Shown here in pieces: positions 7,967 to 61,580 of a stretch of DNA of 64,000 nucleotides (position 1 is the first letter of the stretch; each line of letters begins with the position of its first letter). The translations under genes were made by a program, and so were the position numbers. Below the pieces are notes generated by a model. That model was given only the letters and a program-made list of their open reading frames with translations. It had not been told where the DNA came from and did no database searches. Source of the stretch: Warburgia ugandensis (taxonomy: Eukaryota; Streptophyta; Magnoliopsida; Canellales; Canellaceae); assembly GCA_035236585.1 (NCBI GenBank), contig CP141132.1:47743880-47807879 (forward strand). Direction: 5' to 3'.

Positions 7967-10900
7967 CATCATCATCATCAAGACCTTATCCCAATTAAGG
8001 GTCGACCACATGAATCTTGTTCCTTCATTCTCTTCTATTAAGTACCATGGCTTTATTTAGTCCCAAAGTTTTTAAATATTTTCTCACCACTTCTATCCAC
8101 ATTCTTTTTGGCCATTCCCTTGCCCCTTTTAGAACCTTCTACTTGCATTGCCTCACTCCTAACCAGTGCTATTTTCGGTCATTGTTAGATATGTCCAAAC
8201 CATCTAAGTCTAATCCCCATCATCTTGTTACCTATTGGTGCTACCCTTAAGTTTCCTCTAATGATTTCATTCCTAATTCTATCCTTTCTTATCTTTCCAC
8301 TCATCTATCTTAACATCCTCATTTTTGCTATATTCATCCTATGAACATAATGTTCCTTAACTGCCCAACACTCTGATCTATAAAGCATGGCCGACCTTAT
8401 AGCCATCTTATAGAATTTTTCTTTTAGTTTAAGTGAAACCCGACAATCACACAAAACTCTAGATGTGCGTCTCCATTTGTTCCAACTCGGTTGGATTCTC
8501 TGGTAACCTCCCTCTTAATCTCTCCACTCTCATGAATCATCGATCCTAAGCACCTAAAGTGGTCTTTTACTGGGACTTCTTGGTTATCAATCTTTACTGG
8601 TACTCTAGTCCCACTACTCTCCTTGCTAAAATTGCATTCCATATACTTTGTCTTAGTTCAGCTAATTTTAAATCTTTTATGTTCTAATGCTTCTCTCCAT
8701 AACTCTAGCTTTGTGTTTACACCCTCCCTATCGCATCAATTTAAACTATATCATCTGCAAATATCATGCACCATGGAATCTCTTCGTGCAGATGTTTTGT
8801 TAACTCATCCATAACCAATGTGAAAAGGTATGGACTCAATGCCGATCATTGGTGCAATCCTACAGTAATAGAAAAATGACCAGTCTCTCCGCTAATGGTC
8901 TTAACATTTGTTACCACTCCCACATACATATCTTTAATTGTGTCCATATACGGCCACAAAACCCCTTTCTTGCCCAACACCCTCCTCCATATTAACTCTC
9001 TAGGAATCCTAGCACAAGCTTTCTCTAAATCAATAAAGACCATGTGAAGGTCCTTCCTCCTCTCCCTATATTTCTTCATCAATTGTCTTAGTAAGAAAAT
9101 AGCTTCCATGGTAGACCTCCAAGGCATGAAACCAAACTAGTTCTCCAATACACTTGTCTCATGTTATAACCTCTTCTCAATCACTCTTTCAAAAAGTTTC
9201 ATAATATGGCTCATAAGTTTGACCCCTCCAATAATTAGTGCAGCTATGTATGTCTCTTTTATTTTTATAAACTGGTACAAAAGAGTTATTCCTCCATTCA
9301 TTCTGCATTTTCTTTAATTTTATAATCTTATTAAACGACTTAGTCAACCAAACTACTCCAGTATCTCTCATATACTTCCAAACCTCAATTAGTATACCAT
9401 CGGGCCCCAGGGTCTTTTCTAATTTCACCTTTTTCAAGGTCTCTTTCACATGAGGTATTCTAATCTTATGGCCGTATCTATAATGTCCAATGTTATTTAG
9501 GTTTATAATCCTTTCAATCCTATATTCTCAGGGCAATTGTCATTTAGCAATTTTTGAAAGTAACTTTCCCACCTTTGTTTGATCTTGTCATCTTTGACTA
9601 GTACCCTTTGATCATCACTTCTAATGCACTTAATGTGGTCTAAGTCCTTACCCTTGTGTTCTCTTATTTTTGCAAGTTTAAACACATCTTTCTCACCTTC
9701 TCATAATCCTAATCTATTATAGAGATCATCATATTCCCCAAGTTTAGCCTCCCTTACTATTCTCTTAACGACCTTTTTAGCATTCTTATATTGTTCATAG
9801 TTTTCATTATTTCTAATCTTCTGCCATGCTTTAAAACACACCCTTTTTTCTTTAATAACTTTTTGCACTTTTTCACTCTACGACCAAGTTTTATTTACTA
9901 ATTGCCTTTTACCTTTAGATACTCTTAAGACATTTTTTGCCACTTTTTTTATGGACTCAACCATATTAATCCACATAATGTTTACTTCTATTTCATTGTT
10001 CCAATTTCCTTCTACCATCACCTTATTTGTGAGAGAGGTTATTTTCTCCCCTTTTAAGTTGCACCACTTAGTTTTTGGATACCTATTAAGTTCATTTTCT
10101 TTCTTTCATTTAATGTAGATATCCATAACCATTAACCTATGTTGTGAGGCTAAACTCTTACCAAGTATCACCTTACAATCCTTACACATTGATCTTTTGG
10201 TATTCCAAGGTAAAAATAGTCTATTTTGCTTTTATGAAGTCCACTTTTACAGGTTATTAAGTACCCATCCCTCTTCTTAAAGAATGTATTTGCAAGGGCT
10301 AGGTTATATGCTAAAGTAAAATTGAGTATAGTTTCCTCCATCTTATTTTGTTCTCCAATACCATGCCCTTCATGTACCCCATCATATCCTTCATTTTCTT
10401 TTCATACATAGTCATTTAAGTCTGCTCATATAAATATCCCCTCTGTGCTGGGAATTTCTTGCATGACTCCCTCCATATCTTTCAAAAATTGTCTCATGAT
10501 TATATCTTCTAACCCTACTTGTAATGCGTGTGCACTTATAACATTTATGATGTGCTCTCTTAGAACAAGTTTTATAATTATAATTCTATCACTTGTTCTT
10601 TTAACGTATAAAACTTTATCATTTAATTCTTTATCCACTATTATTTCTATGTAATTTTTGTTGCTAACCTTTCTTATGTTGCAGAGCTTATATCCATTGC
10701 TTTATCTAATTTTAACCCTTTTCACTTGGTTTCTTGGATACAAGCAATGTTGGCTCTCCTACGTTTCATCGTATCTACTAACTTCAAGCTCTTACCTATT
10801 AATGTCCCTATATTCTATATAGCAATACGAATCTTATGCTCTAAAGATAGCATATTTACCTACACACTTCTTCACCCCCATGACATGAACCCATGCCTAC

Positions 10901-10980
10901 TTTCCTCTACACCTAGGTTCTGATACAATGTGTCGCTTTCAAGGGAACGCTCTAGTAGCCCTTGCCTATTTTCCACTACA
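7967..10980 (-). mobile_element. RTE-clade LINE, copy 1, 5'-truncated
   Basis: A non-LTR retrotransposon. Its 3' end is at 7,967, marked by a (GAT)n tail in element orientation next to tgggataaggtcttgatg. The reverse transcriptase domain is recognisable in pieces: GRSTMEAIFLLRQL-like text near 9,120, VFIDLEKACARIPREL near 9,020, and a thumb segment near 9,190-9,450 with GPDGILIEVWK. Traces of the AP endonuclease lie at 10,426-10,640. Similarity to the other two copies stops at about 10,980, so the 5' repeats and the start of the ORF are missing. The reading frame is broken by many stops and shifts. It is the most decayed of the three copies, and no convincing target duplication was found. Confidence 0.9.
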
Positions 10981-21006: not shown

Positions 21007-21350
21007 TGACGTAGCGGATGCATTTTTTGAACTGTTGAATCGCACACGACTACCAGCTACAACCTTCTATAAACCTGTTGAATCTCACAACTACCAGGCA
21101 AATAGGCATCAAAATCTAAAAAGAATGCGAATTTTGGAAAGGAAACAAAGGCACCCTCTAAAATATTTATAAAACGGCTAATAAAAAAAAAAACCCTCCC
21201 CAGTCCTAGGGCTTACAATATATAAAATAAATAAAAACCCTAAAATTACCCAGAATAGCAAAAGTCCAAAAGTCACAGAAATTATGAAACTGCCACTAGT
21301 TCAATTTTTCAAATTTTCCCATAAAAACACATGCCATCTCCTCGACCGCA
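21007..21350 (-). repeat. 3' LTR of the gypsy element
   Basis: It begins tgacgtagcgg and ends ctcctcgaccgca in plus orientation (TG...CA) and matches 25,537-25,901 along its length. The right copy has extra sequence near its start and a (TA)n expansion near 25,765. Confidence 0.9.
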
Positions 21351-24300
21351 TCATTCTTCCCAAGTTGGACAGAATTCGCCCTCGAATTGTCTTCATCCAA
21401 ACTATCTCCAGCGAAGGGAACCAAATGCAGAACAACCCACACAAAATCACCCACGTCAAATTCCACATGCCTTCTCTTTTTATCAGCAGCTTCTTTGTAC
21501 TTGCCCTCAGCTTTTTTCAAATTATCATGGACAGCCTTATGAATCTCTTGCAAACTAGTCACAAAGTCTTCTACCTTCCCATGAATTCTGGTCTTGTTTG
21601 GTAAAGGCAACAAATCAAGTGGACCTCTAGGAACAACAATAAACACAACCTGAAAAGGACTGAAACTAGTACTGCGATTAACTGCATGGTTGTGTGCAAA
21701 TTCTGCTTGGCTCAACTTCTGGTCCCAACTCTTCACATGCTCACCAACCAACCACCTCAACAGATTCCCCAAAGACCGATTCACAACCTCAGTTTGCCCA
21801 TCTATTTGAGGATGATAGACACTACTGAAATTCAACTAAGTATTCACCATCTTCCATAAGCTGCGCCAAAAATGACTAAGAAACCTGGAGTCTCTATCAG
21901 AAACAATTGTTGTAGGCAACCCATGTAAACGATAAACCTCCCAAAAATACAATTGAGCAACACGAATAGCATCTGTTGTTTTCTTGCAAGGAATAAAGTG
22001 TACCATCTTAGAAAATCTATCAACCACAACAAAGATGGAATCATTACCTCGCTGTGTTCATGGCAAACCCAACACAAAATCGATGCTAACATCAACCCAA
22101 GGCTCGAAGGAAGAGGCAATGGCATATATAAACCCGCATTAGTAGCTGTCCCCTTAGAAACCTAATAGATTCTGCACCGTTGCACAAACTTCTCCACCTC
22201 TTTCCGAATGGTTGGCCAAAAGTAAGAAGCTTGAACCAATTGTAAAGTTCAATCACAACCCACATGACCTTCACCATGCAACTCTTTAATAATCTGAAGC
22301 CGTAAGCTACAATCTAGAATGCACAATTTATTGCCTTTAAATAGACAACCATCCAGCAACAAGAAATTTGTTTTCTCACCAGCCCTGACTTTTGCTAAAA
22401 CACTAGAAAGTACGGATCAGTCTCAAGTAATTCAGAAAAAGAATCAAAGCTAGGTACCTCTACTTGCATCCTATTCAAGAGACTCTTCCACCTACTCAAT
22501 GCATCAACCACCTTGTTTGTAACACCAGATTTATGCTTCACAACAAAAGTAAAATGCTCCAAATAAGCAACCCAAGAAGCAAGTGCTTCAAAGCCTCATG
22601 ATCAGTGTACAAAATAAATTCCCTATGAAACAAATAATGCCGCCAATGCTTAACAGCCTGCACCACAGCATAAAACACCACGTCATAAGTATTATATAGC
22701 ATTTTTGCACCAGACAGCTTCTCACTAAAATAAGCAACTGGCCTACTGTTTTGGCTCAAAACCGCTCCAATTCCCACCTTAGAAGCATCTGCATGTAACT
22801 CAAAAGGCTAATGAAAATCTGGCAACACCAAAACAGGAGCTATTGTAAGGCACACCTTAATCTATTCAAAAGCCCTTTCTGCCTCATCACCCCACACGAA
22901 CTTTCCACCCTTCATGCAATCCATAATGGAAGCCATAATACTACTAAAGTGAGGACTAAAACGCCTATAGAAAGATGCCAGCCCATGAAAGCTTCGAACC
23001 TCAGTGATAGTGCTGGGTCTAGGCCAATTTCGAACTGCCTCCACTTTCGACTCATCTACTTGCAATCCCTCACCCGAAATCACATAGCCAAGAAAAAGCA
23101 CCTCAAAGGTCATGAAAACACACTTCTTCATTGCTGCATAAAACTTCTCCCTGAGAAGCACACTAAGGACATCCCGCAAATGCTTAAGATGTTCCTCAGG
23201 GTTAGCACTATATATCAATATATCGTCAAAATACACAACGACACATTTGCCAATGAATGACCTCAAAATCTAATTCATTGCTCGCATAAAAGTACTAGGT
23301 GCATTTGACAACCCAAACGGCATCACCAACCACTCATACAACCCCTCCCTCATCTTAAATGTTGTTTTCCACTCATCACCAATTCTAACTTGAATCTGAT
23401 GGTATCCATTCTTCAAATCCAGTTTAGTGAATACTCTACCACCACTAAGTTGATCAAGTAAATCATCCAAACGAGGAATAGGAAAGCGATACCTGACAGT
23501 AATTTTGTTGACGGCTCTGCTATCCACACACATACGCCATGAACCATCTTTCTTAGGTGTTAGAAGGGCTGGGACTGCACAGGGACTCAAACTCTCCCGA
23601 ATAAACCCCTTAGCTAGCAACTCCTCAACCTACCTCCTCAACTCCTCATGTTCTCTGGGACTCATTCTGTAATGTGGCCTGTTTGGAAGGGCTGCTCCAG
23701 GCTCAAGGTCAATCTGATGCTAAATATCATGCAACGAAGGTAACTCATCCGGCAGCTCATCTGGAAACACATCACGAAATTCTGCCACAAGTGAAACTGC
23801 TGTTGTAGGAATTTCTACCCCTTCAGTGACCTCCTTACCCACCAAAACATACACTATCTCTGTATCCTGCAATTCTTCTTCAAACCTGGCTAAAGACAGC
23901 AAACTAGAATTTTCTTTCACAGGTTTAGACTCAACAGGATCCTTAACAGGCACCAACACAATTTTCACTCCCTTAAACATAAAATTGTAAGTATTAGCCC
24001 TACCATCATGCACTACACCCCTATCAAACTGTCAAGGTCTCCCTAACAACAACTGACATGCATCCATAGCAACCACATCGCACCAAACAACATCTCTATA
24101 TTTAGAACCAATAGAAAAGGAAACCAGTGCACATTTAGAAACTGTTACCTCGCCTCCTTTTTTTAGCCAGGACAGCCTGTAAGGCTTAGGGTGTTGCTCA
24201 GTTTCAATGCCCAATTTCTAAACTGCTTCTGTAGACATAATATTTTCACAACTCCCAGCATCAATCATAAATTGTACACTTTACCCAGGATGGTACAAGT

Positions 24301-25536
24301 AGACTAAAACATATTATTTCTCAACCAGTCATCTTCAACAGCTTTAGGCGTCATACAGGACCTCCTAACAACCAACGCAGTGTCTACATCTCCAGTCACA
24401 ATCTCCTCATCAGCATCAACAGCAAGATTAGCATCAAAGGTTGGTTCCTCAGCCACATAAACATCTGCTTCTTCGCCCTCTTCATCAACAAAAAGAGCAT
24501 TTTCCCCCTTTTTCTTGCACTCAGACTGCCTATGTCCAACCTCACCATAATTAAAACACTTAATTCCACTAGTGCCAGTTTTATTAAAGCGACCAATGGA
24601 ATTATTTCCTACTGCTCCACCACTAGCATGATTTCCAGAACTACTGCTACTGCGACCACCACCACCACTGGTTGTACTACTCCCAATTCGTCGCTGCTGC
24701 TTCTCCACAACCAACGCTCTCTGGTGCGCCAAAGACACAGAAACTAGATCAAACATATTAACTGTATCCTGAATCTGCACCCTCATTCCTCCAATATACC
24801 GCGCCACCAACTGCTCTTCTGTCTCTTGAATCTCATTCCTAGCCACAAGTTGATAAAATTCAGTAGTATAATCATCTACTGCTTTACATCCCTGCCTCAA
24901 GTTCTGCAGCCTCTAGTACATCAACCGCTGGTAGTTGTAGGGCAAAAAATTTGCTCGCAAGTGTTTCTTCATCTTTTCCAATGAAGTAATTTTGGATTTG
25001 CCCAATTTGTTTCTAGTTAATTTTGCTTGCTGCTGCTCTATTAAGAAATCTGGTTGCTACTAACTACACATGCTTATCTTCTAGCACCCCCTTAAATTCT
25101 AAAATCTCCTCTACTATTGCTAACCAATCTAAAAATTCCTCTGGTTGAAGATTGCCATGAAATTCTGGAATTTTTGTCCGCATTCCAGTCTCCCATCGCC
25201 TGCGATCCTCCTCAACACAAGGTCTATTATGTCTACGTGGTGCCTCCTCATAATACTCTTCCTCATCATTTACAAAATCATCATCTACATCCTCAGGATT
25301 AGGATTCCTTCTACGATCAAGATTAAGATTCCTAGTCTGATTCCTAACTAATTCACCCATCCTTGCTGTCAAATGCTTAACTACTGTCTCCAAGCGTTGA
25401 TCAATCATCTGCCCTATTCTCTGTTCAAAATGATTAATATCATTACACTCATAAATATCATCCAACTGACGCTGTTGAGTATTAGGCCTTCTTCGTGCCA
25501 TTCTTTCCAAGGAATGAATTTGGCTCTGATACCAAC

Positions 25537-25901
25537 TGACGAAGCAGAGGCTTTATAAAATAAGAAAAATGTTGGAATTGTTGAATCGCACACGACTACT
25601 AGCTACAACCTTCTATAAACCTGCTGAATCTCACAACTACAAGGCAAATAGGCATCAAAATCCAAAAAGAATTCAAATTTTGGAAAGGAAACAGAGGCAC
25701 CCTCTGAAATATTTATAAAACAACTAACCAAAAAAAAACCCCTTCCCAGCCCTGGGGGGTACAATATATATATATATATATATATCAACCCTAAAATTAC
25801 CCAAAATAGCAAAAGTTCAAAAGTCACAGAAATTACAAAACTGTCACTAGTTCAACTTTTCAAATTTTCCCATAAAAACACACGCCATCTCCTCGACTGC
25901 A
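25537..25901 (-). repeat. 5' LTR of the gypsy element
   Basis: It begins tgacgaagcag and ends ctcctcgactgca. On the minus strand the Met-tRNA primer site follows it directly, which fixes this copy as the 5' LTR and the element's direction. Confidence 0.9.
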
Positions 25902-26092
25902 TCAGTCAAGTTGTCAGCTTTGTTCCTTACCAACCCCAACCCTAAACTGGGTCATGTTATTTACCTTACATTGGGTACAAATCAAAGTTTTCCCCACCCC
26001 ACCCCAAATAGGTGCATGTGATGGAGCTTAGATTAACTCACTTTATTATCATCCCTAAGCTTGCTTAATAAATTAAGAAAAACAAAAAAGGG

Positions 26093-26136: not shown

Positions 26137-26928
26137 TATAGTAAGGAAAATAATTGTAACAACTCCAAAATTTTATTATTCCATGATCAGGTTATGAGTC
26201 GTCAAGGGGTATATCCTTTTTATAAAAGTATAATTTGGAACTAAACCTGAAGCTATTAGATAGTGCTGGGAAAACAGAATCTAATAAGCCAAAGAACACT
26301 GAAAATAGCCCGTATGAAGAAGTTATGGATTTTTAAAGTCAAGGGCAATATGCTAATTAGCAAACGACTTAATGAGAGGGGCCAAATTGATATTGGCACC
26401 CCCCCTTTTCATGAGACTTTCCAAAAGAAAGAACAGATCCCACGATCTGTTCTTCCAGCCTTGGAAACCCTACCTCAGTAACCCCAAACGGGATGAAAAA
26501 ACCCCCTCTGATCGGATTACCCTTCCATCTCAGATCAACCCCTCTCCTGCCGGGTAAATCCTCTCCCTACTCCTCCATTTCCCTCTTCCTTCGTTCTTCT
26601 CTCTCCAACGCAGCCTAATCTAGTCAACATCGCAGATGTCTTCTCCGTCTCTGATCTCCTGGGCTGCCTTTCACCTGCAACTTACTCTTTTCCCCAACGC
26701 AGGTCACCATCTCTCCATCCCTCACTCCTTTGGTCAGCCAGTCATGGAAACCCATTTGCCTCTGCTTCTCATGAGTTCGAATCAGATACATTGTAGAATG
26801 TCTGTTTGGGATGTGTTTCTTGGCACAGTACAATTTCTAAATTAGTTGGGTACGTATTTCCTAAAGATGGGTTTTGTTTCTTTGGTGAGAGAAACGGGCA
26901 GGAATCCATCCTAGTCAATCGACCTTGG

Positions 26929-27128
26929 GAGAGATGTGAATGCAGCGGATCACCTAGGGCAGACAGTGATGCACTGGAGTGTTGTGTAGGGTGCAATCCA
27001 AGTTGTGGCGCTTTTACTTCACACGGTGCAAAGGTGAATGTTGCATATTTGTATGGGTATCCGACAACCCATATTGCAGCACAACATGGTCAGACGGCTT
27101 TCCTTTATCATGTTGTTACAAAGTTACA
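26929..27128 (+). pseudogene. TIP1: Captured fragment of TIP1-like ankyrin S-acyltransferase
   Basis: Translated pieces match the ankyrin region of plant TIP1/PAT24, a membrane protein S-acyltransferase with N-terminal ankyrin repeats. DVNAADHLGQTVMHW is followed by GAIQVVALLL, then in another frame VNVAYLYGYPTTHIAAQHGQ and TAFLYHVVTK. In TIP1 these blocks are contiguous in the same order (GDVNATDHTGQTALHW..., YGYQATHVAAQYGQ). About 65 codons survive. The rest of the ankyrin domain, the membrane segments and the catalytic DHHC domain are absent. The piece carries a stop and a frame change, so it is not a functional gene. It joins directly to the UXS fragment and has no introns of its own. Confidence 0.8.
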
Positions 27129-28048
27129 TTCATCGGCTTGCTACCAAATTCCAGAAATCCACATCACTTGCCAGATCAATCAATTACCTGCTGAAAGAAC
27201 AAAGATTACTGTTTGTTCTTGTTGGCGTCATCATTGCTTCCACCTTCTTCTTGCTCCAACCCATCTTATCATAGTTGAGTCCCACGGAAGTTTGCACTTG
27301 AATCCCCAAATCAGTTGGGATTGGTCATGGGAGTAACATTGTAAATCATGTAGGGGTTGTTCCTACTAAGAACTCTGCGAATTATGCATTAGAGGCTTCT
27401 AGGAATTATACACCACCTGTTGTTGTTAAGAACAAATGTGTTCCGATCAAAATTCAAAACAAGTCGTTGACGATTGTTGTGACAGGTGGAGCTGGATTTG
27501 TTGGCAGTCATCTTGTTGGTAAGCTTTTGGCAAGTGGGAATAACGCAATTGTTATTGATAATTTCTTTACTGGGAGGAAAGAGAATGTGGTTCATCATTT
27601 TGATAATCCAATATTTGAGCTGATACGCCATGATGTTGTTGAACCAATATTGCTGAAGGTTGATCAGATTTATCACTTGGCTTGTCTGGCATCGCCCGTG
27701 CATTACAAGTATAACCCGATAAAATCAATCAAGACATGTTATGGGGACCCTAAACAGGTTGAGTCTGGCAAAAAGGATTGGTGCTCATTTTCTGCTGACA
27801 AGCACTAGTGAGGTTTATGGCAATCCTCTTGAGCAATCTCAAAAGGAGACATATTGGGGAAATGTCAATCCTATAGGTGTAAAGAGTTGCTATGATGAAG
27901 GAAAAAGAGCAGATGTTGAGGTGCCTATCGCTCACATTTTCAATACATACAGGCCTCGCACGTGTATAGATGATGGGCACGTCATTAGTAATTTCATTGC
28001 TCAGACTCTCCATAAACAGCCAATGACAATTTATGGTGATGGGAACTA
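27129..28048 (+). pseudogene. UXS: Captured cDNA-like fragment of UDP-glucuronate decarboxylase
   Basis: This matches membrane-anchored plant UXS, the Golgi enzyme that makes UDP-xylose from UDP-glucuronate. Seen in order: the N-terminal anchor (SINYLLKEQRLLFVLVGVII, near 27,175-27,270), the NAD-binding motif [11 protein letters not shown] (near 27,485), [40 protein letters not shown], the active-site CYDEGKR, and AHIFNTYRPRTC. It ends at MTIYGDG, so about the last third of the enzyme is missing. Anchor, linker and catalytic region follow one another without introns, so the source was probably spliced mRNA. It has a small frame-shifting loss, an in-frame loss of about 13 codons after CYDEGKR, and no poly(A) tract. 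It is a pseudogene. Confidence 0.9.
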
Positions 28049-29180
28049 GACATGAAGTTTTTAATATGTTTCTGATTTAAATGGGGTCGATCGTGAAAAA
28101 GAGGACAATTAAGGCTAGTGGAATCTAGTGAACGCGTCACACGAGGTAGGTAAAAATTTAAGATAGCATGTCTAAATAATAAGATGCATGTTCTAACATG
28201 ATCTTATTTCTGATTATATGATTGATATTCGATATGCTTTAAATTGAAATAATGTTAATTAAAGGAATTGCATGTTATAATTGATTCCTATGCCTTGTAC
28301 ATCATGTAGGTAAATTGTGAAATTATGTTTATGGTACATGGATACCATGTCAGTATTGATGATGTATGAGTCTAGGTTATAGGATACATCCTTGGTGGGT
28401 TATCACCAAATAAGTGAGGATGTTATTCTTGTTATGAAATATATGAACAGGTGAATTGCCTACTATTATGATTATTTTACATTCGGGCATGGAGGCCTGA
28501 GAGTTTTGTTTTAGACAGGCGTAGGCCTAGGGATGCTATGCTAGGAGAGTTATGAGGGTTTGGCCACCTGCTCTCCAAAATTTATTATGTTATGGATACC
28601 ATGCACTATGTGTTGCAAAAAGTTAGGTGGGGCAATCATGGGAAGGCCGCCCTATGACAGCCATGGTCCTCCCCATGCAGACATGGATATTGTGATTTCC
28701 ACCGAGGATGGTATAGGTGGATTATTGAGTAGTTATCCGGGCACGCTATACGGATTCTGACTGCATGCATGGTAGTCCTTATATTTGATGCACTATGGTG
28801 CATATCTTTGAGGGTTGCCAAAAGATGCTGAAGTGTTCAAAAGATGCTGGTTAGGTAGTTATGAGGGACAGGCAGTTGTAAGGGACCCAAAGAGGACAAT
28901 ATTGTATTTGTTGTGCATTCTGCCCACGATACATGCATATATGATGGAATTATGAGATGCTTTATATGATATGGCATGATGATATGCTTTACATAGCTTT
29001 CCCAACAATGGCTGGAGGATTGTGGACCCCCCTTAGTGAGGGGCATGAGGATTATATTGATATTCCAGTAGTGGCTGGATAATTATGAACCCCACATGAT
29101 GAGGGGTTTGATTCTGAAACCCAATATAGTATGGGAATGCAAATTAGGTGACGTTGATTATATTCATAATTTTGTATGTC
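28049..29180. other. Interior of the LTR-like unit, non-coding
   Basis: After the UXS fragment stops abruptly near 28,048, the sequence returns to LTR-like non-coding DNA. Repeated phrases such as atggctggaggattgtggac and gtggctggataattatgaac occur near 29,010-29,080. No gene was recognised. Confidence 0.45.
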
Positions 29181-29191
29181 CTTTAACAATT

Positions 29192-29196
<5 letters not shown>

Positions 29197-29238
<42 letters not shown>

Positions 29239-32200
29239 AAAGACCTTATCCCAATTAGGGGTCGGCCACATGAATCTTATTCCTCCATTCGACTCTATTA
29301 AATACCATGGCTTCATTTAGTCCCAAAGTTTTTAAATCTTTTCTCACCACTTCTATCCGCGTTCTTTTAGGCCTTCCCCTTCCCCTTGCCCTTTTAGAAC
29401 CTTCTACGTGTATTGCCTCACTCCTTCTAACTAGTGCCGTTGTTGGTTTCCTTTGAACATGTCTAGACCATTTAAGTCTGATCTCCCTCATCTTGTTACC
29501 TATTAGTGCTACCCCTAAATTTCCTCTAATATTTTCATTTCTAATTCTATCTGTTCTTGTCTTACCACTCATCCATCTCAACATTCTCATTTCTGAGATG
29601 CTCATCCTATGAGTATGATGCTCCTTAACTGCCTAACACTCTGATCATAAAGCAGGGCTGGCCTTATAACCATCCTATAGAATTTTACTTTTAGTTTGAG
29701 TGGCACCCGCCAATCACATTAAACACCCGATGCACATCTCCATTTGTTCTAACCTACTTGGATTCTCTAGGTAACCCCCCTCTCAATCTCTCCACTCTCA
29801 TGGATCAATGATCCTAAGTATCGAAAGTGGTCTTTCACGAGGACCTCTTGGTTATCAATTTTGACTAGTGTTCCACTCCTACTCTCCTTGCTAAAATTAC
29901 ATTCCATATATTCTATCTTAGTTCGACTAATTTTAAATCCTTCATATTCTAATGATTCTCTCAATAACTCTAGCTTTATGTTTATACCTCCCTTGTCTTA
30001 TCAAGTAGGACTATATCGTCTACAAATGGCATGCACCAGGGAATCTCCTCATGCGGATGTTTTGTTAACTCATCCATAACTAATGTGTATGGACTCAATG
30101 CCAATCCTTGGTGCAATCCAACAGTGACAGGAAAATCACCAGCCACGCCACTAGTGATCTTAACATTTGTTATCGCTCCCTCATACATATCTTTAATTAT
30201 GTTTATATACCCTTGAGAAACCTCTTTATCACCCAGCACCCTCCATATTAACTCTCTAGGGACTCTATCATAAGCTTTCTCTAAGTCGATAAAGACCATG
30301 TTGAGGTCTTTTCTCCTGTCCCTGGATATTTCTCTACTAATTGTCTTAGTAAGAAAATAGCTTCCATGGTAGACCTCCCAGGCATGAAACCAAACTGATT
30401 CTCTGATACACTTGTTTCATGTCATAGCCTCTTCTCAATCACTCTTTCAAAAAATTTCATGGTGTAGCTCATAAGTTTGATCCATCTATAATTAGTGCAG
30501 CTCTGAATGTCTCCTTTATTCTTATAGATTGGTACAATAGAGCTTTTCCTCCATTCATTAGGCATTTTCTTTGATTTTATAATCTTGTTAAACAACTTGG
30601 TCAACCAAACTACCCCAATATCTCCCACATGCTTCTAAACCTCTATTGGTATACCATCAGGCCCTATGGCCTTTCTTGATTTCATCTTTCTCAAGGCCTC
30701 TTTTACTTCAGGTATTCTAATCCTACATTCATATCTATAATATCCAATGTTATTTAGATTTATAGTATTCAATCCCTATATTCTCAAGGCCATTGTCATT
30801 TTACAATTTTGGAAAGTATATTTCCGACCTTTGTTTCATTGCATCATCTTTGACTAATACCCTTTAATGATCACTTCTAATGCACCTAACATGCTCTAAG
30901 TCCTTACCCTTTTGTTCTCTTACTTTTGCAAGTTTAAACACATCTTTCTCACCTTCTCTTGTTCCTAGTCTATTATAGAGCTCATCATATGCTTTAAGTT
31001 TAGCCTCACTAACTATTCTCTTAGCAACGTTTTTAGCATTCTTATATTGTTCATAGTTTTCATTATTTCTAATCTTCTACCATGCTTTAAAACACATTTG
31101 TTTTTCTCTAATAGATTTTTGCGCTGTTTCATTCCACCACAATGTTTCCTTTGTTAATAGCTGTTTACCTTTAGATACTCCTAAGACTTCTTTTGCCACT
31201 TTCTTAATGGACTTAGCCATATTAGTTCACATGGTATTTACTTCTGTTTCATAGTTCCAATTTCCTTCTACCATCAACTTATTTTTGAATGAGGTTATTT
31301 TCTCTCCTTTTAAGTTCTACCACTTAATTTTTGGATGTGTATTGAGTTCAGTTCTTTTACTACATCTTTTGATATGAATATCCATAACCATTAGCCTATG
31401 TTGTGAGGTTAAACTCTCATCAGGTATCACCTTACAATCCTTACATATAGATCGTTCATTATTCCTAAGTAGAAAAAAGTCTATTTAGCTTTTATCAAGT
31501 ACACTTTTAAAGGTTATTAAGTGTTCATCCCTCTTCTTAAAGAGTGTATTTGCAATAGATAGGTTATATGACAAAGCAAAATCTAGGATATTCTCCCCCA
31601 TCTCGTTTCGTTCACCTATACCATATCCTCCGTGTATTCTATCATATCCTTCCTTTTCTTTTCCTACATGGCCATTTAAGTCTGCTCCTATAAATATCCC
31701 CTCAGTTTTGGAAATTTCTTGCATGACTCCTTCCATATCTTTCCAAAATTGTCTCTTGATTATATCTTGTAATCCTACTTGTGGTGCATATGCACTTATA
31801 ATATTTATAATCTGCTCTCCTAGAATAATTTTTATTATTATAATTCTATCACTGATTCTTTTAACGTTCACAACTTTATCCTTTAATTCCTTATCTACTA
31901 TTATTCCTATGCCATTTCTGTTATTTTCCTTTCCTACGTACCATAATTTATACCCATCTATTTCTTTAGCTTTAGCCCCTTTCCACTTAGTTTCTTGGAT
32001 ACAAGTGATGTTGACTCTCCTACATTTCATCGTGTCTACTAACTCCAAACTCTTACTTGTCAGTGTCCCTATATTCCATGTAGTGATGTGAATCTTATGT
32101 TCTGGAGATATCATATTTACTATCGCCTTTCTCAACCTCCATGGTATAAACCCATGTCCACTTTTCACTACACCTGGGTTCTGATGCAGCGCGTGGCTTC

Positions 32201-32763
32201 CGAGGGCACACTCTAGCAGCCCTTGCCCATTTTTCACTACACTCGGGATTTGATGTAACGTGTAGCTTCTACGAGAACGCCCTAGCAACCCTTGCCTATT
32301 TTTCACTGCACCCAGGATCCGATGCAGCGCATTGCTTTTGGGGAATTCCCTAGCTTGAGTGAATGTTAGTTTTCGATTCATGTTATGTTGGGGTTGCCAT
32401 AGTTTTAAAAAGTTGAAGATGATTTTCATTAAAATCATCTTCAACTTCACCCTTGCCGACTGGCTACCTGATGCAAGGGTAGCTATATTTTAAGAAGCTG
32501 GAGATAATTTTCATTTCTTCCTCACAAACTAATATACAAATGCATATTCATTTGTCAGAAAGAAATAATAGAATCATCTTCAACTTCCCCCTTGCTGGCT
32601 GGCTACCTGACGCAAGGGTGACCATATTTTAAGAAGCTGGAGATGATTTTCATTTCTTCCTCACAAACTAATATACAAATGCATATTCATTTGTAAGAAA
32701 GAAATAATAGAATCAGCTTCAACTTCCCCCTTGCTGGCTAGCACCTGATGCAAGACCCTCCTT
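29197..32763 (-). mobile_element. RTE-clade LINE, copy 2, nearly full length
   Basis: A 3.6-kb non-LTR retrotransposon with a perfect 16-bp target duplication ctttaacaattttcat at 29,181-29,196 and 32,764-32,779. In element orientation it has two 5' repeats of about 140 bp (32,460-32,760), a frame starting near 32,450 with three repeats of about 25 residues, an AP endonuclease (IQETKW, SAYAPQ, GADLNGHVG; 31,485-32,450), then reverse transcriptase pieces (FIDLEKAYDRVPREL, VTVGLHQG, FVDDIVLLD) and the C-terminal end with RGRGRPKRT. It ends with a (GAT)n tail. Compared with copy 3 it lacks about 38 bases at the 5' end. The endonuclease frame is open for 321 codons, but the RT part has several stops and shifts. 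It sits inside the LTR-like unit and is therefore younger than it. Confidence 0.93.
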
Positions 32764-33518
32764 CTTTAACAATTTTCATATATGTGTATTATTGTTATAT
32801 TAATATGATTGAGGGAGTAGTTTCATATATGTTTTCATATGTGTTAATGAATGGGTAGAATTGTATGCAGAGTATGGTTCATGGAATTGAAGTATTTATT
32901 TTGATGATAAATAATAAGTAAAGATATCTAATTTATAATGAAATTATTAATAATTACAAAAACATGTAGATATTTAGCTTACAAATGGATTGTTGAGATA
33001 TGAAACATATTGTAAATTCAATTTAACATAATTGCTATGAAAATGAATATTCTAATTACTATTGAATAATTAATATATCTTAAGATTTAGCATGCTTCTT
33101 AAACTCCCCTACCAAGCATAGCTTGCTAAGATATTGTAACAGATACTGAAAGATAGGAAAATATGTACACAACAAAAGGAATCCAGCAACCATACTTCTA
33201 TGCATAGGTATACATTTTATTTAAAGCCTTTGTATTGTGTAGTTAGTTATTTGAATTGTGATATTGGACATTTAATATAATGTTATAGGGGCTATACAAG
33301 TGAACTACTGGATGGGTCCTATTTTCATAAATAAATTTCTATCTTCTAGAAAACTATATATATGTATAGTGTGAGCATGAAGGTGATATCCGGGTTTTTG
33401 GAAAAATGAATTTCAAAGAAAAATATTTCGTTATTTTTGTATTTTAAAATTTCGAGGCGCGCCATCTTTTGAAAAAAATGCAAAAATTTTTAATGAAAAC
33501 TCGAGGTGTCACAATATT

Positions 33519-45705: not shown

Positions 45706-48700
45706 TAAACTCAGCCAATGCCAGTCCCAAGCCCCGATAAAAAAAGGAGGGTCTTGCGTCAAGTGCCAGCCGGCAAGGGGGAAGTTGAAGACAATCTATT
45801 ATTTCTTTCTTACAAATGAATATGCATTTGTATATTAGTTTGTGAGGAAGAAATGAAAATCATCTCCAGCTTCTTAAAATATGGCAACCCTTGCATCAGG
45901 TAGCCAACCGGCAAGGGGAAAGTTGAAGATGATTCTAGTATTTCTTTCTTACAAATGAATATGCATTTGTATATTAGTTTGTGAGAAAGAACAGAAAATC
46001 ATCTCCAGCTTCTTAAAATATGGCCACCCTTGCGTTAAGTAGCCAGCCGGCAAGGGTGAAGCTGAAAATGATTTTAATGAAAATCATCTTCAGCTTTTAA
46101 AACTATGGCAACCCCAACATGACATGAATCGAAAATTGACATTCGCTCAAGCTAGGGCGTTCCCCATAAGCAATGCGCTGCATCAGATCCCGGGTGCAGT
46201 GAAAAATAAGCAAGGGTTACTAGGGCGTTCTCGCAGAAGCGACACTACATCGGATCCCGGGTGTAGTGGAAAATGGGCATGGGCTGCTAAAGCGTCCCCT
46301 CGGAAGTGACACGCTACATCAGAACCCAGGTGTAGTGAAAAGTGGACATAGGTTCATACCATGGAGGTCGAGAAAGGCGATAGTAAATAGGGTATCTCCA
46401 GAACATAAGATTCGCATAGCTACATGGAATATAGGGACACTGACAAGTAAGAGTTTGGAGTTAGTAGACACGATGAAACGTAGGAGAGTCAACATCTCTT
46501 GTATCTAAGAAACCAAGTGGAAAGGGGCTAAAGCTAGAGAAATAGATAGGTATAAATTATGGTACGTAGATTATAAATATTATAAGTGCATATGCACCAC
46601 AAGTAGGGTTACAAGATATAATCAAGAGACAGTTTTGGGAAGATATGGAGGGAGTTATGCAAGAAATTCCCAACACTGAGGGGATATTTATAGGAGCAGA
46701 CTTAAATGGCCATGTAAGAAAAGATAAGGAAGAATATGATAGAATACATGGAGAGTATGGTATAGGTGAACGAAACGAGATGGGGGAAAATATCCTCGAT
46801 TTTGCTTTGTCATATAACCTATCCATTGCAAATACACTCTATAAGAAAAGGGACGAACATTTAATAACCTTTAAAAATGGAATTCATAAAAGCAAAATAG
46901 ACTTTTTTCTACTTAGGAATAATGAACGATCTATATGTAAGGATTGTCAGGTGATACCCGGTGAGAGTTTAACCTCACAACATAGGTTAATGGTTATGGA
47001 TATTCATATCAAAAGATGGAGTAAAAGAACTGAACTTAAAACACATCCAAAAACTAAGTGTTGGAACTTAAAAGGAGAGAGAATAACCTCATTCAAAAAT
47101 AAGTTGATGGTAGAAGGAAATTGGAACTATGAAACAGAAGTAAATACCATGTGGACTAATACGGCTGAGTCTATTAAGAAAGTGGCAAAAGATGTCTTAG
47201 GAGTATCTAAAGGTAAAAGGCTATTAACAAAGGATACATGGTGGTGGAATGAAACAGTGCAAAAAGCTATTAAAGAAAAATGAATGCGTTTTAAAGCATG
47301 GCAGAAGATTAGAAATAATGAAAACTATGAACAATATAATAATGCTAAAAACGTCGCTAAGAGAATAGCAATTGAGGCTAAACTTAAAGGATATGATGAA
47401 CTCTATAATAGACTAGGAACAAGAGAGGGTGAGAAAGATGTGTTTAAACTTGCAAAAGTAAGAGAACAGAAGGGTAAGGACTTAGAGCATGTTAGATGCA
47501 TTAGAAGTGATGATCAAAAGGTATTAGTCAAAGATGATGAGATCAAACAAAGGTGGGAAACATACTTTCAAAAATTGTAAAATGACAATGGTCCTGAGAA
47601 TATAGGGATTGAAAATACTATAAATCTAAATAACATTGGATATTATAGATATGAACGTGGGATTAGAATATCTGAAGTAAAAGAGGCCTTGAGAAAAATG
47701 AAATTAGGAAAGGCCATGGGGCCTAATGGTATACCAATAGAGGTTTGGAAGCATATGGGAGATATTGGGATAATTTGGTTGACCAAATTATTTAACAAGA
47801 TTATTAAATCAAAGAAAATGCCTAATGAGTGGAGGAAAAGCTCTATTGTATCAATCTATAAGAATAAAGGAGACATACATAGCTACACTAATTATCTAGG
47901 GATCAAACTTATGAGCCAAACCATGAAACTTTTTGAAAGAGTGATTGAGAAAAGGCTACAACATGAAACAAGTGTATCGGAGAATCAGTTTGGTTTCATG
48001 CCTAGGAGGTCTACCATGGAAGCTATTTTCTTACTAAGACAATTAGTAGAGAAATAGGGAGAGGAGAAATGACCACCACATGGCCTTTATCGACTTAGAG
48101 AAAGCTTATGATAGATTCCCTAGAGAGTTAATATGGAGGGTGTTGGGTGGTAAAGGGGTTTCTTAGGGGTATATAGACATAATTAAAGATATTTATGAGG
48201 GAACGGTAACAAATGTTAAGACCACTAGTGGCGTGACTGGTGATTTTCCTGTCACTGTAGGATTGCATCAAGGATCAGCATCGAGTCCATACCTTTTCAC
48301 ATTAGTTATAGATGAGTTAACAAAACATCTGCATGAGGAGATTCCTTGGTGCATGCTATTTGCAGACGATAGTCTTACTTGATGAGACAAGGGAGGGTGT
48401 AAACATAAAGCTAGAGTTATGGAGAGAAGCATTAGAATCTGAAGGATTTAAAATTAGTCGAACTAAGATAGAATATATAGAATGTAATTTTAGCAAGGAG
48501 AGTAGGAGTGGAACACCAGTCAAGATTGATAACCAAGAGGTCCCCGTGAAAGACCACTTTCAATATTTAGGATCATTGATCCATGAGAGTGGAGAGATTG
48601 AGAGGGAGGGTACTTAGAGAATCCAAGCGGGTTGGAACAAATGAAGATGTGCATTAGGTGTTTTATGTGATCGGCAGGTGCTACTCAAATTAAAGGAAAA

Positions 48701-49151
48701 ATTCTATAGGATGGCTATAAGGCCGGCCATGCTCTATGGATCAGAGTATTGGGCAGTTAAGGAATATCATACTCATAGGATGAGCGTCGCAAAAATGAGG
48801 ATGTTAAGATAGATGAGTGGTAAGACAAGAAAGGATAGAATTAGAAATGAAAATATTAGAGGAAATTTGGGAGTAGCACCAATAGGTAACAAGATGAGAG
48901 AGATTAGAATTAGATGGTTTGGACATGTTCAAAGGAGACCAACAACGGCACCAGTTAGAAGGACTGAGGCAATACAAGTAGAAGGTTCTAAAAGGGCAAG
49001 GGGAAGGCCCAAAAGAACGTGGATAGAAGTGGTGAGGAAAGATTAAAAAACTTTGGGACTAAATGAAGCCATGGTATTTAATAGAGAGGAAGGGAAGAAT
49101 AAGATTCATGTGGCTGACCCCTAATTGGGATAAGGTCTTGATGATGATGAT
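45706..49151 (+). mobile_element. RTE-clade LINE, copy 3, full length
   Basis: A 3.45-kb non-LTR retrotransposon flanked by a 17-bp duplication with one mismatch: gagagaaagaagggtag at 45,689-45,705 and gagagaaagaagagtag at 49,152-49,168. It starts taaactcagccaatgccagt and has two and a half 5' repeats of about 137 bp (45,745-46,060). The frame near 46,124 begins with three repeats of about 25 residues. It continues with AP endonuclease (46,350-47,280; GADLNGHVR), a linker (47,284-47,580), reverse transcriptase (47,689-48,400; GPNGIPIEVWK, GFMPRRSTMEAIF, FADD) and the C-terminal RIRWFGHVQRRP region (48,813-49,046). The tail is (GAT)n. About 125 bases of the endonuclease are deleted near 46,569, and several stops and shifts interrupt RT, so it is inactive. 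It lies antisense in the proposed host intron. Confidence 0.94.
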
Positions 49152-49168
49152 GAGAGAAAGAAGAGTAG

Positions 49169-59260: not shown

Positions 59261-59348
59261 CTTTAAATTTTAGGCCTAAAATGTGAAAAGCATAAAAGAG
59301 TGAGTACTGTTATTTTCGTAACAATTGAAAAAAAAAAAAAAAAAACTC

Positions 59349-60125
59349 CAAAATAGAAAACAGCATGAAAAATACATCACACATGAAGACACAAGCATGG
59401 GAAACCTATATATGTAAATAGGAATACATTTTAACTAATAAATATATATAAAAAAAAAAAACAATTTTTTCCAATTTCTATAACTGTTATTTTTAGAAAA
59501 TTTTTAAAAAATAACACAAATACAAAAAAAGCATGAAAAATACATCATACATGAAGACACAAGCATGGGAAAGCTATATATGTGGATAAGAATAGGTATT
59601 AACTAATAAATATAAAAAGAAACAATTTTTTTCTAATTTTTGTAACTTTTATTTTCAGAAATTTTTTTTAAAATAACACTAAAATACAAAAAAGCATGAA
59701 AAATACATCATACATGAAGACACAAGCATGGGAAAGCTATATATGAGGATAAGAATTGGTATTGACTAATAAACAAAAAAAAAAAAAACAATTTTTTTCT
59801 AATTTTTGTAACTTTTATTTTCGGAAAAATTGAAAAAAAAATAACACTAAAATACAAAAAAAAAGCATGAAAAATACATCATACATGAAGACACAAGCAT
59901 GGGTAAGCTATATATGTGGATAAGAATAGGAATTAACTAATAAATATAATAAAAAAACAAAAATTTTCTAATTTTCGTAACTTTTATTTTTAGAAAAAAA
60001 AAAAAACACTAAAATACAAACAAAAGATGAAAAAGTTAGCACACATGAAGACACAAGCATGGGAAAGCTATATATGTGGATAGAAATACGTTTCAATGAA
60101 GAAATACAAACAAAAAAAAAAGAAG
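59349..60125. repeat. Tandem array upstream of the hAT transposase
   Basis: Five units of about 160-172 bp, starting near 59,362, 59,532, 59,692, 59,864 and 60,028. Each contains gcatgaaaaatacatca, gaagacacaagcatggg and ctatatatgt followed by an A/T-rich tail. The array lies between the transposase start (59,260, minus) and the nearer element end, where promoter and transposase-binding sites are expected. Its role is not known. Confidence 0.9.
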
Positions 60126-61580
60126 ACATTTTTGTAACTGATTTTTTGGAAAAAAACAGTAAAAAACCTAAAAACAAACTCAAATCTAGAGCAAAGAAGT
60201 ATAAAACTCAAATGGAATGTTGTTTTATACATATAGAATTAGAACCCATCAAGATCTATGAAAAATAGTTAACAAAAAACAAAAAATTTGAAAAAATGGC
60301 ACTGTTTTTTATGGTTTTTTACAGAAACTGTAAACAAATGCTAAGATTCGTAAATCCATACCTTTTTTTGCTTAGATCTGTAAAATATCGAAGAGGAATG
60401 GTCGTTTTCACCTTCTCAGTAGGTTGGAAGATTGAAATTAGGGTTGGAAGATGAAAAAAGAAATTTTTTTGAGGTTTATAAGTTGCCCAGGCACACCTGA
60501 ACGGAGCCTCTAGGCACACCTAGGCGCACGCATGGGCGACCACGCCTCTTTTCCTCTACCCCTTGCACGCTCCCAGATGCATACCTAGACTTGCGCCTAG
60601 GCGCACCTCTAACTACATAGGTTAATAGGCTTACAAAGTTCTCTCACTTCATTCCACTATGTCACCCTTTCTCAGCCAAGACAAAAGCCATACTCTTCTC
60701 CTTGTACGTCTCCATAGGTTTCCTTGTTCAATTGTCTTCGATCGAGACAGGGTTTTCATCAGCAATTTTTGGACCAAACTATTTAAGCAAGGCTAGAACT
60801 GTCTTAAAGATGAGTTCGGCATATCACTCTCAAACGGATGGCCAAACAGAGGTGATAAACCAATGCCTAGAAACTTACTTAAGGTGCTTCTTTGTGGGTA
60901 AACCCAAATCTTGGCCTAAGTGGATAGCTTGGGCTAAATATTGGTTTAACACAACTTTCCAAGGAGGAGCAAGAATGACTCCTTTCAAAGCAGTCTACTT
61001 CATTTAACTGAAGAACCCTCCCTTGTTGAAGATGTTAATCTCCTTATTCAACAAAGGAATTAAGTATTACAAGATCTCAAGGACAAAAGCACAGTCATAG
61101 ATGAAAAAATACGCCAATTCAAAGAGACGAGAACTGTTTTTACGGCCTGGTGAACTAGCCTTCCTCAAGGTTCAACCGTACCGAAGGACATCCTTGGCCC
61201 AAAAACTCAATGAGAAGCTCAATCCCAGGTTTTACGGTGCCTATAAAATACTAGAACAGATTGGTCCTGTTGCTTACTGCTTGCAATTACCTCCCTCTAC
61301 TAAAATTCACCCTGTTTTCTATGCATCCCAACTCAAACGTGCAGCTCACACTTCTGCTTCTTGACAAGAAATCCCACCCTTTCTTACCGATGAACTGGAA
61401 CTTCAGGTGCAACCAGAACAGTAAGACAAGTCCGCAGATCACCCAATGGGACTTCAGAAGTTTTGATTAAATGACAAGACATGCCTGCCTTTGAAAATAC
61501 TTGGGAGGAAGCAGCAGTTATCAGTTCTCAGTTCCCAGAATTTCACCTTGAGGAGAAGGTGAAAATTTTTGGGCGGGTTG

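Follow-up and report, generated by a model that had tools for sequence, protein, structure and literature searches.

LTR retroelements that capture pieces of host genes are already known, and the described cases, as far as the available portions of those reports extend, place the pieces between the LTRs. Host pieces of maize Bs1 lie in the internal region of the element, whereas in the family described here they lie inside the LTR (in both LTRs of the two-LTR copies L032 and L038) and the genes differ from member to member. Cassandra TRIMs carry 5S rRNA sequence in their LTRs and so resemble our family in having host RNA sequence inside the LTR, but this is one non-coding RNA as opposed to a series of different mRNAs. 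There is precedent in Bs1 for multi-gene transduction by an LTR retroelement, with the pieces within the element (PMC13317346); the likeness to our family, on the portion of that paper available, is that several host gene pieces are fused in one spreading element, and our family likewise shows what characterizes a Bs1-type capture, namely intron-less pieces of intron-bearing genes in a retroelement.

Other systems share further features with the present one, again on the available portions of the papers cited. The soybean TRIM GmaRetroS15 has fragments of three host genes that consist of exons only (PMC4717578); like our family it is a non-autonomous LTR element whose exon pieces are free of introns, but its gene similarity lies in internal regions and not within the LTR. 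The LTR of barley BARE-2 was changed by abnormal template switching (PMC13317346), so that, as we propose here, foreign sequence entered an LTR and then spread; the incoming sequence was another retrotransposon in BARE-2 and host mRNA in our family. In the LTR-mediated retroposition described by Tan et al. (2016), host mRNA is joined to LTR element cDNA at microsimilarity (reviewed in PMC5408686), and short shared sequences occur at host mRNA/element joints in our family also; as described, that process involves neither a recurrent LTR slot nor exon-end joints, unlike what we report below. Retroduplication of pepper NLR genes placed spliced host genes between the LTRs of mostly non-autonomous LTR retrotransposons (PMC5664825); the host genes are spliced and the elements mostly non-autonomous in both systems, but in pepper one gene family was amplified between the LTRs as opposed to serial capture at one LTR position. 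In the literature covered, which was largely that outside subscription journals, we found no case of such serial capture. If one family acquired different host mRNAs at a single position in its LTR, each acquisition would be an independent natural event, and the joints of the series would reveal the mechanism; the present family is a candidate for such a series. Furthermore, pieces placed in an LTR reach both LTRs and solo LTRs and could therefore feed small RNAs against the six housekeeping-type genes concerned.

The window, by which we mean the whole 64,000-nucleotide stretch of Warburgia ugandensis DNA analysed (C7:47,743,880-47,807,879), was compared with a searched genome of 1.12 Gb in 14 contigs (C numbers), from which sister loci (L numbers) were drawn. 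The features of the locus are collected in the table.

Table. Features of the captured host pieces and of the LTR that carries them (window positions; a slash marks a joint or an exon end)
Feature	Position	Strand	Basis
LTR, probably solo, of a high-copy non-autonomous LTR retrotransposon family, LINE-interrupted	26155..33513	+	ends TGTAACAAC and GTGTCACA align with sister LTRs
Candidate target duplication	26150..26154	.	ATAAT versus ATATT at 33,514-33,518; 4 of 5 bases agree
LTR upstream part	26155..26916	+	common to sister LTRs; two short readings from its end, in sister and window copies, without a Pfam match
TIP1-like ankyrin cDNA piece	26917..27124	+	start 26,917-26,931 by comparison; C2 exons 26,931-27,061 and 27,063-27,124
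TIP1/UXS joint, probably a secondary deletion joint	27124..27126	+	2 genomic places; more of TIP1 and of UXS retained in L020
UXS cDNA piece, five exons fused, frameshifted	27126..28078	+	exon map against L024
Right border, host exon end against fixed downstream LTR part	28074..28090	+	UXS exon end GATTTG/gtatgt; L020 GATTTG/TGCATGGTCGATC
Downstream fixed LTR part, piece 1	28079..29196	+	sister copies about 90% identical
LINE inside the LTR, outside the capture	29197..32763	-	CTTTAACAATTTTCAT at both edges; 16-bp duplications
Downstream fixed LTR part, piece 2, reaching the 3' end	32764..33513	+	aligned in 17 of 20 loci compared

The original prediction placed two host pieces inside what looked like a single long LTR, and this proved correct: the ends of the LTR align with those of sister copies, with which it shares its TG...CA termini. 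Piece 2 of the downstream part aligns over most or part of its length in L019-L023, L028-L030 and L032-L038, and as patches of 132 and 44 bp in L027. Perfect 5-bp duplications flank two sister solo LTRs (CTTTG in L019, GATGT in L033). Allowing up to 2 mismatches, a 34-nt LTR pattern matched 642 genomic places (control 0), and piece 1 of the downstream part gave 8048 first-look candidates, the best 40 of which were scored. The window copy differs from L019 by a K2P distance of 0.091 over 2,408 sites. Four copies (L020, L023, L028 and L030) are without the TGTAACAAC start and have longer upstream sequence in common; they differ in LTR start or form another subfamily.

L032 and L038 have two LTRs each, a purine tract, and directly after the LTR the sequence TTGGTAT(C/T)AGAGC, which we take to be a tRNA-Met-like primer site. 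Their LTR pairs are separated by K2P distances of 0.096 and 0.093, respectively, the second LTR of L032 being cut by the locus end. The longest readings in their internal regions are 88 aa (L032) and 92 aa (L038), both on the minus strand, which falls short of gag/pol capacity, and we therefore regard the family as non-autonomous. Three readings taken from the upstream LTR part (sequence like window 26,417-26,916) and from L042-type sequence gave no Pfam match. The LINE that interrupts the window LTR contains a reverse-transcriptase-like minus-strand reading, FVDDIVLL. Copies related to this LINE lie at about 7967-10980 and 45795-49153 of the window, and both UXS parents (L024 and L025) carry a related LINE fragment of about 500 bp in the intron behind the fifth mapped exon.

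With regard to the host pieces themselves, a TIP1 piece abutting an intron-less UXS piece had been predicted, and we recovered this arrangement with slightly larger extents. The assignment to UXS was confirmed by matches of the window reading to PDB 2b69 (UDP-glucuronate decarboxylase; E 2.5e-32) and to Pfam Epimerase. The assignment to TIP1 stands in part: the ankyrin piece matches a C2 gene at 86-92% DNA identity and also matches L028-L030 from 26,917/26,918, and the fuller copy in L028 gives Pfam Ank_2 at 1.3e-28, but the 179-aa ankyrin reading of the window gave no Pfam match. Both the C2 gene and the captured piece are presumably TIP1. When compared with the species' own genes, the window copy is missing the C2 TIP1 intron of about 415 bp (at 27,061/27,063) and four introns of the C2 UXS parent. 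Over exon 1, captured UXS lies at a K2P distance of 0.079 from the C2 parent and 0.158 from the C13 paralogue, the two parents being 0.095 apart, and it therefore derives from the C2 gene after the C2/C13 duplication. Every UXS-bearing copy in the comparison is broken. The two parents lie far apart on C2, TIP1 near 9.05 Mb and UXS near 93.49 Mb, which disposes of the concern that the pieces might simply be genomic neighbours.

One explanation for intron-less pieces is that processed pseudogenes, that is mRNA copies made by LINEs, landed in an LTR and spread with it. The missing introns would fit, and LINEs have been active in this genome, one of them within the same LTR. We nevertheless consider this explanation very improbable: as predicted, the two pieces have the same orientation and lack poly(A), no run of A in 27,901-28,150 exceeding 5; their borders are sharp; the pieces are cut at both ends; and several different genes occupy one slot.

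The last point comes from sister LTRs, in which the same slot holds, in sense orientation, spliced pieces of TIP1 and TPL, of TIP1 and ABCB29, of NIPA, or of NCRK. Capture has thus happened repeatedly, one slot of the LTR having received pieces of six or more host genes. In the TPL type (L028, L029, L030 and L041), eight TIP1 exons are fused to four exons of a presumably TOPLESS-like gene, which we call TPL and which gave weak WD40-type matches in a search of solved structures. The ABCB29 type (e.g. L032, L033, L036, L037 and L038) joins a short TIP1 piece to a piece of an ABC transporter (Pfam ABC_membrane 2.2e-8) whose parent is at C1:14.54 Mb; a search with this piece gave 157 first-look candidates, of which the best 40 were scored, and the TIP1/ABCB29 joint pattern occurs at 51 genomic places (control 0). 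The NIPA type carries a Mg_trans_NIPA match (Pfam, 6.5e-25), and its joint with the LTR occurs at 97 places (control 0). A kinase piece in L046, L052 and L065 (Pfam Pkinase 6.1e-11), presumably NCRK, has an intron-bearing parent on C9.

Further copies were sampled in two small, non-random sets. Eight copies of the downstream part for which no ABCB29 match was among the listed candidates consisted of four that carried ABCB29 after all, one with NCRK and a NIPA tail, and three of the L042 type, and nine copies picked for other haplotypes consisted of four that matched the L029b type along their length, two that matched it across the last 126 nt only, two of the L042 type and one with NIPA. Loci L053-L062, taken at one stage as uncaptured LTRs, were dropped from that role as they proved to carry a NIPA piece. 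An LTR type represented by L042, L047, L048, L070 and L072 has sequence upstream of the border that is unrelated to that of the other types. Three UXS-bearing copies on C3 (L021, L022 and L034) have the flank behind the LTR end in common; because of this flank and the 97.7% identity of L021 and L022 across 1.37 kb upstream, the latter two look as if they were duplicated within a larger unit.

Helitrons and Pack-MULEs commonly carry pieces of plant genes, and DNA-level capture by such elements, or ordinary gene conversion, might be thought to have brought genomic gene pieces into the LTR. The frequent presence of plant gene pieces in these DNA elements is on record (PMC13317346, available portion). 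This route has next to no credence with us, given that twenty introns are missing over the five mapped genes (seven from TIP1, three from TPL, four from UXS, three from ABCB29 and three from NCRK) and that the pieces sit in TG...CA LTRs, two sister solo LTRs having perfect 5-bp duplications. It is these missing introns that establish the RNA origin of the pieces.

How host RNA came to be joined to the LTR can be read from the joints. Among the five host-to-LTR joints examined, four coincide with the end of a host exon, those of TPL, NCRK and UXS as judged from the parent genes and that of NIPA to within 1 nt as judged from the exon structure of its family. More specifically: (i) the UXS joint lies at the exon end in L020 and 1 nt short of it in the window copy, with about 1 nt shared; (ii) the TPL joint lies at the exon end (GGAG/gtacta) in L029, L030 and L041 and carries a base or two of change, still in register, in L028; (iii) the NCRK joint, read from the single copy L052, lies at the exon end (parent CAG/GTGAGA, L052 TAG/GTGAAGAAC), with an ambiguity of up to 4 nt because the GTGA beyond the exon end equally fits the start of the intron; and (iv) the NIPA joint lies 1 nt short of an exon end deduced from the exon start at ALDTF in 7 family members, 6 of which have the canonical AG. 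Exon-end joints had been set as a test beforehand, and NCRK conformed to this expectation and ABCB29 did not, its joint lying inside an exon (parent ..GAGTTGAAGC/aaggag). If exon ends occur about every 100 nt, the chance of four out of five joints falling at them would be small. The LTR side is also restricted: the site GTGAAGAAC was joined by two different genes, TPL and NCRK, and the UXS, NIPA and ABCB29 joints lie within about 15 nt of one another in the related LTR stretch GATTGAAGTGCATGG. This suggests that one place in the LTR has trapped host messages repeatedly.

Pure template switching by reverse transcriptase would provide another route, in which strong-stop minus-strand cDNA ends at the RNA start (thereby fixing the border), jumps through a few bases in common to a co-packaged host mRNA and returns to the upstream LTR, with no splicing into the LTR. 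The right border is indeed fixed, and by eye a TATA-like TATTAAGA lies about 31 nt upstream of it in L029b-type copies. Shared bases are also present at several joints. ABCB29 overlaps the LTR by TTGAAGC(A), 7-8 nt, in 3 of 7 LTR copies (the script gave 0 in 4 of the 7, one of these misplaced), and overlaps of at least 7 nt arose at random-pairing frequencies of 2.5e-4 and 3.9e-4 in two null sets; TPL has AGCACTTGG in common with one LTR copy; GGGT is shared at the TIP1/ABCB29 joint (4 nt, with the C2 parent), TAGAGGG at the NCRK/NIPA joint, and bases are shared at the TIP1/UXS joint as well (see below). On the other hand, template switching alone does not predict the four exon-end joints (one of them within 1 nt), the UXS/LTR joint with its single shared base or so, or a TIP1/TPL joint that is exon-exact on both sides with an exact overlap of 1 nt. 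As the sole route it was weakened in particular by the NCRK exon-end joint and the NIPA family exon starts, and we regard it as unlikely.

Because four of five joints lie at exon ends, we infer that a splice step probably took part in capture. It was not the only route, since at this LTR border the ABCB29 piece stops within an exon, and a strict scheme in which every captured piece was spliced into the LTR was rejected for this reason. The ABCB29 joint and the left-hand joints point instead to template switching. The original prediction of capture by template switching is therefore retained for part of the process, on the strength of the ABCB29/LTR and L020 TIP1/UXS overlaps, but not for the joint at 27,125, probably a later deletion, nor for the exon-end joints, which imply a probable splice step.

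We favor, with moderate confidence, a host-exon-collecting LTR in which splicing joined host donors to an acceptor-like LTR site and template switching to the upstream LTR followed during reverse transcription. In this scheme: (i) the donor of a host transcript would be spliced onto the acceptor-like LTR site; (ii) the product RNA would have host exons ahead of the downstream LTR part and primer site, a 5'-transduction; (iii) reverse transcription from the primer site would copy the LTR part and next the host exons; (iv) by way of a few bases in common, the cDNA would change template to another element RNA, continuing in its upstream LTR part or in a TIP1 piece that it already carried there; and (v) the finished LTR, host piece included, would be copied to both ends of the next element and then spread. 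The arrangement expected of 5'-transduction (host sequence upstream, in sense orientation, with a joint at a transcript boundary) is present at four of the five joints and absent from that of ABCB29. The introns that follow the captured exons showed no LTR remnant over the stretches examined (684 bp for UXS, 131 bp for TPL and 337 bp for NCRK), which argues neither for nor against a splice model. At the left side, a reading of the LTR/TIP1 joint as a single exon start was dropped as the AATTGAG preceding the exon start fits both TIP1 exon 1 and the L019 LTR.

The TPL-type LTRs raise an additional possibility. On C2 both genes are on the minus strand, with the mapped TIP1 exons not extending beyond 9,057,868 and the captured TPL exons lying from 9,073,412 upward, so that TPL lies about 15.5 kb upstream of TIP1; the order is the same on C13 (the loci at C2:9.05-9.07 Mb are L026, L039, L040, L063 and L064). 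In the LTRs the TIP1 exons come first and TPL follows, the reverse of the genomic order. In L028 and L041 the joint runs from donor to acceptor and follows the exon boundaries exactly on either side; L029 and L030 show changes of the C-to-T type. Such an order would result from a back-splice or a trans-splice. A downstream-gene donor on an upstream-gene acceptor has the geometry of a read-through back-splice, and the element may accordingly have captured a circular read-through RNA. Template switching may instead have made this joint, given the 1-nt overlap and a GATGAC/GATGAG similarity. A bolder reading of the whole family would be that the LTR is an exon trap, with an acceptor-like site spliced to donors from no fewer than four unrelated host genes and repeated 5'-transduction rewriting the upstream LTR half with host coding sequence, and with circular read-through RNA perhaps captured too; we put this forward tentatively, as possible but somewhat doubtful.

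The TIP1/UXS joint of the window was expected to recur if a chimeric element had propagated, and it is not single-copy: the pattern at 27,125 was found at 2 places, the window and C10, at up to 3 mismatches (control 0), and a perfect 5-bp target duplication flanks the C10 copy. In L020, however, a TIP1 piece that extends to the end of a later exon is joined to a UXS piece that begins beside the start codon. Because L020 joins a longer TIP1 to a longer UXS, the window joint is probably the product of a later deletion in a longer chimera of the L020 kind and not a capture joint. The window copy would thus descend from an L020-kind TIP1-UXS capture, the stretch between the present ends having been lost afterwards. 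By eye, the L020 joint has TTGGAAA shared with the C2 parents. A 36-bp deletion in a UXS exon near 27,910 and a 2-base frameshift in UXS are both common to the window, L019, L021 and L022 and absent from L020.

Elsewhere in the window, direct repeats at 21,026-21,356 and 25,572-25,907 (90-91%) mark a separate retroelement, in which the minus strand has a gag-like reading at 25,064-25,552, and a tandem array at 59333-60126 consists of five A/T-rich units, each about 165 bp long.
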